Origin: Planctomycetota bacterium
Lineage (GTDB): Bacteria > Planctomycetota > Phycisphaerae > Phycisphaerales > UBA5793
DNA length: 64,000 nucleotides
Direction of reading: 5' to 3'
Assembly: GCA_963205185.1 (NCBI GenBank)
Contig: CAUJHZ010000037.1
Span: forward strand, 1 to 64,000
Program-made: the position numbers and the translations under genes
Notes under the pieces: model-generated
The model's database searches: none
Told to the model about the DNA's origin: nothing
The model's input: only the letters and a program-made list of their open reading frames with translations
Part shown: positions 3,520-62,256 of the stretch, in pieces
How positions within the stretch are numbered: the first letter of the stretch is position 1
Layout: each line of letters opens with the position of its first letter

Positions 3520-3950
3520 TGAGGAGGTGAGGGGGTGATTGAGTGAATGGGTGAACCAGACTGACGCGCGAGCGAAGAGTTCGAATCGGAGAGGGACTTC
3601 GTCCTCGCTGGCGCTTCGGTCTGGTTGGGCGCGCGGGGGTGAAGGGGTGATTGAGTGAACGGGTGAACCAGACTGACGCGCGAGCGAAGAGTTCGAATCG
3701 GAGAGGGACTTCGTCCTCGCTGGCGCTTCGGTCTGGTTGGGCGCGCGGGGGTGAAGAGGTGATGGGGTGATGGGTGAACCAGACTGACGCGCGAGCGAAG
3801 AGTTCGAATCGGAGAGGGACTTCGTCCTCGTTGGCGCTTCGGTCTGGTTGGGCGCGCGGGGGTGAAGGGCTGATTGAGTGAATGGGCGAACCAGACTGAC
3901 GCGCGAGCGAAGAGTTCGTTTGAAGGTTGAGTATCTCAAGTGAATTGATT
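3520..3950. repeat. Tandem REP-like array, about 3.4 units of 112 bp
   Basis: The marker GTGAACCAGACTGACGCGCG begins at 3551, 3663 and 3774, with a variant at 3886, giving a period of 111-112 bp. Each unit holds two arms in inverted orientation: CCAGACTGACGCGCGAGCGAAG and CTCGCTGGCGCTTCGGTCTGG. The last unit is truncated. The interval 3950-4093 is a C/G-rich stretch with CCCTCC and GGAGGG arms and no gene. Confidence 0.9.
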
Positions 3951-4093
3951 CTTCGAGCTCCCCCACCCCGGCCCTCCCCCGCAGAGCCGGAGGAGGGAGC
4001 GGTGCTGTCGCTGGCGCTCCCGCGGCGCCGGGTCTGCGCCGTTCGGCTTGGCTCAGGGTCTTGACGAAGCATTGACTCCGGCCTACGTCTCGC

Positions 4094-4315
4094 GTTCATC
4101 CTCGCTGGCGCGTCGGTTTGGTTGAATTGCGTTCGTCCTCGCTGGCGCGTCGGTCTGGTTGAATTGCGTTCATCCTCGCTGGCGCGTCGGTCTGGTTGAA
4201 TTGCGTTCATCCTCGCCGACGCGTCGGTCTGGTTGAATTGCGTTCGTCCTCGCCGGCGCGTCGGTCTGGTTGAATTGCGTTCATCCTCGCTGGCGCTTCG
4301 GTCTGGTTGGGCGCG
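4094..4315. repeat. Tandem array of six 37-bp REP half-units
   Basis: Six units start at 4094, 4131, 4168, 4205, 4242 and 4279, each reading roughly GTTCATCCTCGCTGGCGCGT followed by CGGTCTGGTTGAATTGC. They contain only one arm of the palindrome found in the 112-bp and 96-bp arrays. The last unit ends in GGTTGGGCGCGCGG, directly against the asd promoter region. Confidence 0.92.
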
Positions 4316-15539: not shown

Positions 15540-15628
15540 CGCGGCAGGGACCAGAGCGACGCGAGCGAGGATCCATAGAAGTGGCACGAGGACCGGCCCT
15601 CTAAAGTGCCGCGTTCTTTTCCTCGCCG

Positions 15629-15639: not shown

Positions 15640-16095
15640 ATGGCTGCCCCACTGGCATACTTCATTTCCTGGACGACCAAGGGCTCCTGGCTTCATGGTG
15701 ATGAACGGGGCTTTGTTGATCGCGACAAGCGGGGTATTCAGCCACCCGACCGACTCCGCAACGAACAGGAGTTTCTGGCGCTCCGCGATGAAGTCGTCAC
15801 GCTCAAGCGCGCACAGCGCGGCGTAGTCGAATCAACAATCCGAGCACATTGCGGCATTCGGAATTGGAGCCTGCTGGCGGTTAATGCGAGGACGAACCAC
15901 GTCCACGTGGTCGTACAGGCGCCGAGCGTGGCTCCGGAAGCGGTCATGGAGCAATTCAAGGCCTGGTGTTCCCGACGGCTGAATGAGATGGCCGGGCACT
16001 CTCGAAAATGGTGGACGCCTCACGGATCGACTCGGTGGCTCAACGACAAAGCGAGTCTGGAAGCGGCAGTTGAGTACGTGCTCAATCGCCAGTAG
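15640..16095 (+). CDS. REP-associated tyrosine transposase (Y1/IS200-like HUH family)
   Basis: RAYT proteins cut and mobilise REP palindromes as single strands. The 151-residue protein starts APLAYFISWTTKGSWLHGDERGFVDRD, the classic N-terminus of this family. It has the HUH metal site in NHVHVVV (His87, His89) and the single catalytic tyrosine in VEYVLNRQ (Tyr146). Between them lie ARTNHV and PEAVMEQFKAWCSRRLNEM, the substrate-contacting helix. Both catalytic motifs are intact, so the enzyme may be active. The stop codon is 24 bp from a tandem array of six 96-bp palindromic units, presumably its substrate. An in-frame extension upstream to 15358 lacks family similarity and overlaps the opposite-strand gene. 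Confidence 0.93.
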   Translation: MAAPLAYFISWTTKGSWLHGDERGFVDRDKRGIQPPDRLRNEQEFLALRDEVVTLKRAQRGVVESTIRAHCGIRNWSLLAVNARTNHVHVVVQAPSVAPEAVMEQFKAWCSRRLNEMAGHSRKWWTPHGSTRWLNDKASLEAAVEYVLNRQ

Positions 16096-16118
16096 GACGC
16101 CTGAAATTCACGATCTCG

Positions 16119-16630
16119 ATCTTCGTCGCTGGCGCGTCGGGCTGGCGTCGGCCGTCCCGAGATATCGAAACCAGACTGACGCGCGAGCGAAGAGAGTGAA
16201 TTCGCGATGGCCTGTTCGTCCTCGCTGGCGCGTCGGTCTGGCGTCGGCCGTCCCGAGACATCGAAACCAAACTGACGCGCGAGCGAAGAGAGTGAATTTG
16301 CGATGGCATGTTCGTCCTCGCTGGCGCGTCGGGCTGGCGTCGGCCGTCCCGAGATATCGAAACCAGACTGACGCGCGAGCGAAGAGAGTGAATTTGCGAT
16401 GGCACGCTCGACCTCGCTGGCGCGTCGGTCTGGCGTCCGCCGTCCCGAGATATCGAAACCAGACTGACGCGCGAGCGAAGAGGAGGAGTTTGCGATGGTA
16501 CGCTCGGCCTCGCTGGCGCGTCGGGCTGGCGTCGGCCGTCCCGAGATATCGAAACCAGACTGACGCGCGAGCGAAGAGGAGGAATTTGCGATGGCCTGTT
16601 CGTCCTCGCTGGCGCGTCGGGCTGGTTGAG
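16119..16630. repeat. Tandem array of six 96-bp REP units next to the RAYT gene
   Basis: The marker GGCGCGTCGG recurs with exact 96-bp spacing (CGTCGG at 16135, 16231, 16327, 16423, 16519, 16615). Each unit has arm 1 CTCGCTGGCGCGTCGGTCTGG and, 30-odd bases later, arm 2 CCAGACTGACGCGCGAGCGAAG, which is nearly its reverse complement, so each unit can fold into a long hairpin. The loop side carries GCCGTCCCGAGATATCGAAA. 96 is a multiple of three, so frames on both strands stay open through the array. These frames are not genes. Confidence 0.95.
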
Positions 16631-18131: not shown

Positions 18132-18709
18132 TCACGTGCCCTCAATCCGCTTCCACACTTCCGCCATCTCGACGTGAAGCTGGCCAGCCATCGAGCCGTA
18201 GGCGACAAGGTTGGGGCCTGCGGCGCCCGTGTTATCATAGACAAACCACTGATCGGCCAGCGGGATATACAGGTCGAGGAGGTTTTGGACGCTTCGCGCG
18301 TATCTGCGGCGAATCGTCTCAACTGGGATGGAATGCCCTCCCGCCTGTACCCGCCGCGCAACTCGTTGCACGGCCGTTTCGGTTGAATCCACCCAGATGT
18401 AGGCGATGTGCAGGCGGTATCCGCTGCTGCGCATGTTCTTGATCCATGGCACGAGCGAACGGCTGGCAAGGGTTGATTCAAAGGCGAACGACTCGCGCTT
18501 GGCAGCGAGGAGTTGAATCCGCTCAAGCATGATCCTCGATGCCCCGAATGCTTGTGACAGCGGGTCGAGATCCGAAAGTCCCCGAGCGATCACGTCTGCA
18601 TTGACAAATGTGCTGATGCCAAACTGCTGAGGGAGGACTGCCGGCGCAACCGTCGTTTTTCCCGCACCGTTCGGTCCGCCAATCACGACGATTGTCGGAC
18701 TGGGGTCCA

Positions 18710-18710
<1 letters not shown>
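18132..18710 (-). CDS. Zeta toxin-like P-loop kinase
   Basis: Zeta toxins phosphorylate UDP-N-acetylglucosamine to block wall synthesis. The 192-residue protein has the P-loop GGPNGAGKTT (11-20), NADVIARGL, the conserved SFAFESTLASRS, and ARRVQAGGHSIPVETIRRRY, a stretch typical of chromosomal zeta-family proteins of about 190-200 residues. Whether it is a toxin or a metabolic kinase cannot be decided here. The ATG at 18710 shares its A with the hutU stop (TGATG), so it is translationally coupled to hutU. The 65-residue partner follows after one base. An upstream in-frame ATG at 18749 lies inside hutU and has no family similarity. Confidence 0.85.
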
Positions 18711-20368
<1,658 letters not shown>

Positions 20369-62191: not shown

Positions 62192-62256
62192 GAAGGCATC
62201 AAAGGCATCGAGGCATCAAGGCATCGAGGCATTCAGGCATCGAGGCTGAGGCATCG
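62192..62256. repeat. Short tandem repeat of AGGCATCGA type
   Basis: Seven degenerate copies of a 9-10 bp unit (AAGGCATC, AGGCATCG, AGGCATCAAG, AGGCATTC, and similar) between the E1-beta gene and the dcd leader. Confidence 0.7.

Follow-up and report, generated by a model that had tools for sequence, protein, structure and literature searches.

The window, by which we mean the whole 64-kb stretch of DNA analysed here, carries at 15640-16095 on the forward strand a gene for a single-tyrosine HUH transposase of class-3 type (RAYT/TnpA_Y1). The gene encodes 151 amino acids plus a stop codon, and its product matches the PF01797 family with an E-value of 1.3e-8. The HUH motif reads N86-H87-V88-H89 (NHVH), with the codons for His87-Val88-His89 at 15898-15906 (+), and the catalytic Tyr146, encoded at 16075-16077 (+), opens the motif Y146-VLNR-Q151 (YVLNRQ, of the form Y----Q). 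Between these two motifs, the residues W125-T126 (the W[TA] motif) precede the sequence HGSTR. In an alignment with ten homologues, H87 and H89 are invariant, Y146 and Q151 are nearly invariant, and W125 is invariant as well. The AlphaFold2 model of the protein (mean pLDDT 88.3) has its best structural matches among the IS200/IS605 transposases (Z 13-14.6), and its comparison with the TnpA_REP structure 4ER8 gave a Z of 9.4. The length, the family match and the alignment bear out the original prediction of an intact RAYT with His-x-His at positions 87/89 and Tyr146; judged from the sequence, this copy may still be active today, with chances that we put as about even. Three paralogues encoded in the same genome are 35-47% identical to the window protein, the nearest being 47% identical. 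Directly upstream of the second paralogue (G000:C25:102518-102976; loci L032 and L111), a REP variant of its own (GCAGCGCAAGCAAGGACA) is repeated in short tandem copies, and a more distant RAYT of the genus (loci L034, L050 and L055) is flanked by a different palindrome (CACGATTCGCAGAGCCTCATCGTG and variants).

Directly downstream of the RAYT gene lies a head-to-tail array with a period of 96 bp (16126-16625; 5.2 copies, 93% matches and no indels according to Tandem Repeats Finder). The array opens with a lone A arm, after which come five B-A dimers, so that five units plus the lone arm hold six arms of type A and five of type B. Each arm by itself corresponds to a REP, and two arms in a pair correspond to a REPIN-like dimer. 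The first A arm, recognized by arm search and unit alignment, is a REP with a GCCA loop at 16126-16145, in the minus REP orientation, and is separated from the stop codon by 30 bp (16096-16125). Dimer 1 (16171-16241), characterized by DNA folding, contains a B arm with the loop GCGA, a 31-nt spacer and an A arm with the loop GCCA, and the unit alignment places dimers 2 to 5 at 16267-16337, 16363-16433, 16459-16529 and 16555-16625. The loop, GCCA versus GCGA, is the main difference between the A and B arms. The fold of dimer 1 has an energy of -24.4 kcal/mol versus -12.1 kcal/mol for shuffled sequences (z -5.0), the paired arms forming the long hairpin that had been predicted for each unit. The five units differ from each other at 4-12 of 96 bases (mean pairwise identity 92.4%), with 1.0 difference per 40 nt in the arms versus 6.3 per 56 nt in the spacers. 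Thus, the description of the array as six exact units located 24 bp from the gene has to be revised both in the number and identity of units and in the distance. In addition, the original prediction missed a degenerate REP upstream of the gene, which was found by direct reading at about 15551-15571 (+) and has the foot CAGA and a 2-nt deletion. Its position and orientation match those of intact REPs at the corresponding loci of sister species (L118 and L119), and the window RAYT gene is therefore bracketed by inverted REPs.

The arm, read as 5'-CCAGACCGACGCGCCAGCGAGG-3', consists of the foot CAGA followed by CC, GA, a one-base bulge, GC, the loop GCCA, GC, GA and GG. The hairpin of a single arm is weak by nearest-neighbour DNA energies, which may under-credit tandem G-A pairs. 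Tandem G-A pairs combined with a GNNA loop would resemble stable DNA hairpins. Two further arrays in the window share the same 20-bp arms, as was originally noted for the repeats near 3520 and 4094. The array at 3526-3918 repeats with a period of 112 bp (3.5 copies, 95% matches; fold z -5.1) and is built of B-A dimers that belong to the REP family of the 96-bp array. The array at 4092-4309 contains six single arms with a period of 37 bp, all in the minus REP orientation; arm-to-arm hairpins are impossible there because only one orientation is present, and its fold is not strong (z -1.6). A genome-wide search for the 20-mer arm with at most 2 mismatches, a check suggested with the original prediction, identified 36 copies in the 4.55-Mb genome versus 0 copies for the reversed control, and the arm copies are hence not due to chance. 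Copies beyond the window reside on contigs C20, C27, C43, C62 and C76, which removes the possibility that the arms are confined to the window. Inverted REPs paired across a short spacer occur as dispersed dimers on C62 and C76, and seven more such dimers were found in the genome of a sister species (G002), where about 29-35 bp separate the arms and six of the seven combine unlike loops.

The window locus is very likely a REPtron of TnpA_Y1 class 3. The passages of Quentin et al. 2018 (PMC6006769) used here describe this class as found mainly in Planctomycetes and also in Acidobacteria and Proteobacteria, and they call for experimental work; such RAYT-REP pairs are thus already described in the planctomycetes, where the original prediction had considered them little described. 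According to the same passages, class 3 shares with the window RAYT the motifs NHVH, W[TA] and Y----Q, has a profile of about 155 aa (151 aa in the window protein) and, as in the window, has several atypical hairpins on the flanks of its genes and further copies elsewhere in the genome; the 5' foot of these hairpins is CnGA, and that of the window REP is CAGA. Taken alone, the locus adds one more member to a described and barely studied group. Beyond what those passages report for class 3, the hairpin is resolved here (GA / GNNA / GA), a tandem 96-bp amplification is added, and relatives of the enzyme are found in frame within essential genes, of which these passages make no mention. The GTAG-type class 2, represented by E. 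coli TnpA_REP (4ER8), is similar to the window locus in having a single-tyrosine HUH enzyme between inverted REPs and a similar fold, as predicted for the window protein. In contrast to class 2, the window REP has the foot CAGA and no GTAG/GTGG foot, and the window protein has the motif YVLNRQ and no motif of the Y--NP type. On the foot, the Y motif and a score of 24.6 bits with the NCBIfam model NF047646 REP_Tyr_transpos, far below its cut-off of 80, a class-2 identity was rejected. The REPINs of Bertels and Rainey 2011 (PMC3116915) are likewise RAYT-linked dispersed units in which a short spacer separates two inverted REPs; unlike them, the units described here occur in tens of copies only, are mostly heterodimers and have another type of REP hairpin.

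To characterize the hairpin beyond the window, 149 distinct homologues from its order, class and phylum were analysed. Their REPs follow one common plan, namely stem 1, GA, an optional base, a 2-bp stem 2, GNNA, stem 2', GA and stem 1', in which the letters vary. The full pattern was found 225 times in the 115 kb of sequence within 400 bp of the 149 genes (1.95 per kb) versus 14 times in 380 kb at distances of 2.5-4.5 kb (0.037 per kb), a 53-fold enrichment of near over far flanks, and shuffled flanks yielded 0.014 per kb. At least one strict hairpin is present at 91 of the 149 loci, and the other 58 have no match. When pairing was not required, both stems were nevertheless paired in 49% of the near skeleton matches versus 2% of the far ones. 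At both stem-2 positions and at all three stem-1 positions of the form without a bulge, pairing exceeded that in 1000 column shuffles, i.e. the stems covary. The feet of the REPs point outward from the gene, both upstream (70:29) and downstream (72:30), and the same holds for genes residing in frame within other genes (30:3 and 32:9). REP distance correlates with protein distance (Mantel r 0.50, p<=0.0005, 89 loci), both for the 58 free-standing loci (r 0.28, p<=0.0005) and for the 31 in-frame loci (r 0.37, p<=0.005). The foot is CAGA in the window REP family and often CGAG, CTAG or CAAG at other loci, the register depending on the assumed start of the stem. The hairpin and the class-3 RAYT are therefore associated, the stems covary, and the REP co-diverges with the protein. 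As originally predicted, the RAYT would be paired with its own REP-like substrate, a pairing well supported by the enrichment and the co-divergence, and recognition of the cognate REP by the enzyme is probable on these comparative grounds.

In the genomes of two sister species, G004 and G002, the RAYT gene shares both its neighbours and its orientation with the window gene and is collinear with it, which indicates vertical inheritance. The G004 orthologue encodes an intact protein with 79% identity. The G002 orthologue is broken: its N-terminus is lost and NHVH is changed to NHVD, the second His being replaced by Asp. A disabled transposase in related strains, which the original prediction had named as evidence against itself, is thus found in one of these two species and not in the other; the decay in G002 implies that the enzyme is dispensable. 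At both loci, REPs of the window family flank the gene on both sides and the 96-bp array is absent, so the amplification is particular to the species of the window. This agrees with the recent amplification proposed originally. Since the 25-bp spacer between dimers has been copied along with the arms, tandem duplication explains the array better than repeated insertion by serial transposition. Each of the five genomes examined from the genus contains arms (31, 38, 42, 13 and 12 copies), and the same search detected none in the other genus of the family. No orthologue of the window RAYT was found in G003 or G005, yet these genomes contain 42 and 12 arm copies, respectively; the repeat and the gene do not strictly co-occur, and the expectation that genomes lacking the orthologue would lose the arms is ruled out. 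In G003, many arm copies represent the variant CGGCCTGG, a pattern that a REP subfamily diverging alongside another enzyme would produce.

Relatives of the window RAYT were also identified inside the reading frames of large enzymes. In the window's own genome, a class-3 paralogue of the window RAYT (G000:C23:43319-43777) lies within the gene for valyl-tRNA synthetase (ValRS), whose open frame spans 1271 aa (L084, 3038-6850). This frame scores 776.7 bits with TIGR00422 (cut-off 612.1), the match being split into two pieces around the insert, and the class-I signatures HLGH and KMSKS as well as the C-terminal arm are readable. It is the only ValRS over the cut-off in this genome, which is 97.4% complete, and the RAYT that it carries is catalytically intact. 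A class-3 RAYT occupies this ValRS site in 17 of 400 genomes of the order. In three other genomes, one of them from the same genus (loci L132, L134 and L148), the same site holds a RAYT of class-2 type (DHVH, Y-L-NPV), which represents independent use of one site. In relatives that lack the insert, a loop whose length varies occupies this position, in some cases apparently with REP-derived sequence. The class-wide sample added a second ValRS insertion site, three sites in alanyl-tRNA synthetase (AlaRS; L291, L284, L286, L294, L296 and L282), including a single AlaRS frame of 1686 aa with two RAYTs (L291, 3280-8337, minus strand), and HmaB-type DUF1156 methylases carrying an in-frame RAYT (L287, L289 and L295). 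The phylum-wide sample added a BREX PglX with an in-frame RAYT (L302) in a single-contig genome (G968, 100% complete). Both the HmaB-type methylase and PglX are defence-related methylases. In total, the confirmed insertions comprise 35 of class 3 in genes for ValRS, AlaRS and HmaB-type methylases, a further one in BREX PglX, and three of class 2 in ValRS. At L106 (3622-5016), the end of a gene that by eye resembles one for a CMP-sugar cytidylyltransferase is fused in frame with a RAYT.

The H-x-H motif and the Tyr are kept in 35 of 35 in-frame class-3 copies, and dN/dS ranges from 0.07 to 0.30 between the close pairs for which it could be computed, with dS near saturation. The interrupted ValRS is the only one in ten other genomes checked, among them G003, where it is split across contigs, and G002, where the insert is of class 2; the interrupted AlaRS is the only one in seven genomes checked. 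The linkers that connect the transposase to its host protein are REPs read in frame: ACGAGCCGCGACCGTGAGGGAGCG is translated as TSRDREGA and its reverse strand as PLPHGRGS. The ValRS copies formed one clade in a first tree (95/87) and were not kept together in a larger quick tree, which was poorly resolved. An AlphaFold2 model of the ValRS-RAYT chimera built from three sequences (pLDDT 34.8) was unusable for placing the domain on ValRS. Palindromes within coding genes, including those for tRNA synthetases in some species, were described previously (Di Nocera et al. 2013, PMC3733652). In those intragenic REPs and Rickettsia palindromic elements the palindrome is inserted alone, whereas here a whole catalytic transposase is inserted and the REPs serve as its translated linkers. 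Our search, which covered few subscription journals, found no paper describing RAYTs within tRNA synthetases or fusions of aminoacyl-tRNA synthetases with transposases.

Taken together, these data are explained best, and we think with good probability, by a class-3 REPtron with a REP-spreading enzyme, an array grown by tandem duplication and relatives residing in frame. The REPtron pairs a single-tyrosine HUH transposase, inherited vertically, with inverted copies of its REP on either side. The REP is the arm of 20-27 nt: on one strand, the foot (CAGA here) is followed by a GC stem, GA and a 2-bp stem, then by the GNNA tetraloop and the matching halves. A REPIN-like dimer contains two such REPs, feet outward, usually one with the GCCA loop and one with the GCGA loop. 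The enzyme most likely binds the foot and the hairpin of a single-stranded REP, Tyr146 would cut beside the REP as in TnpA_REP, and REPs or dimers would spread at a low rate; for the window pair, binding, cleavage and mobility are all inferred. The growth of the 96-bp array was probably recent and confined to the window's species, with tandem duplication between direct repeats as its mechanism. In the in-frame relatives, translation presumably yields the transposase as an internal domain of the host protein, which would protect it from loss: only a precise excision could remove it, which may be why such copies are kept. It is fairly likely that class-3 and some class-2 RAYTs persist in this way as in-frame domains of single-copy essential or large enzymes, with REP-encoded linkers (SRDREGA, PLPHGRGS) and catalytic residues under purifying selection, tied to the host like an intein without splicing.

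An ordinary insertion sequence of the IS200/IS605 type, whose ends resemble the repeats by chance and whose repeated transposition left the array as debris, would account for the closest solved folds, for the weak match to the NCBIfam IS200 model and for a gene lying between inverted REPs as an IS lies between its ends. However, that match (NF033573, 34.3 bits) is below the curated cut-off of 55, the locus holds a single copy in each genome and is collinear across three species, no near-identical copies are present elsewhere in the genome, the three paralogues being too divergent (35-47% identity), and the repeats greatly outnumber the gene, all of which makes this explanation quite improbable. 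We consider it very improbable that the REP arrays are independent of the enzyme, acting as terminators, mRNA stabilisers or binding sites next to a bystander RAYT. The location of the array between convergent genes, a common place for REPs, and the persistence of arms in other genomes without an orthologue and beside a broken enzyme would fit such independence, but against it stand the hairpin's 53-fold enrichment next to the 149 homologues, its fixed orientation around the gene, the covariation of its stems and its co-divergence with the protein. As to the in-frame copies, most carriers are metagenome-assembled genomes, and assembly artefacts or dying pseudogene insertions that are open by chance could be suspected. 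This is extremely improbable given the 35 distinct loci in several host genes with intact H-x-H and Tyr, the dN/dS values well below 1, the existence of single-contig carriers (G032 for ValRS and the complete G968 for PglX) and the fact that the interrupted ValRS or AlaRS is the sole copy in the genomes checked.

For a class-3 REPtron, the present analysis provides the group with a defined REP hairpin, backed by covariation and co-divergence, and thus with a directly testable substrate for class-3 enzymes. The in-frame result weighs more than the window locus, as an intact transposase inside the only ValRS or AlaRS of a genome would represent an unexpected route of persistence. REPs can serve as tolerated protein linkers, and the long-term maintenance of RAYTs becomes a testable question. 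For annotators, the insertions are a warning that tRNA synthetase frames of about 1000-1700 aa can owe their length to a transposase carried within.

Elsewhere in the window, a tRNA was the sole match in an Rfam search of the 64 kb. A Zeta-toxin-like kinase is encoded near the RAYT gene at 18132-18749 on the reverse strand (PF06414, E-value 9.5e-12), and a short tandem repeat with the 8-bp unit AGGCATCG is located at 62194-62256.
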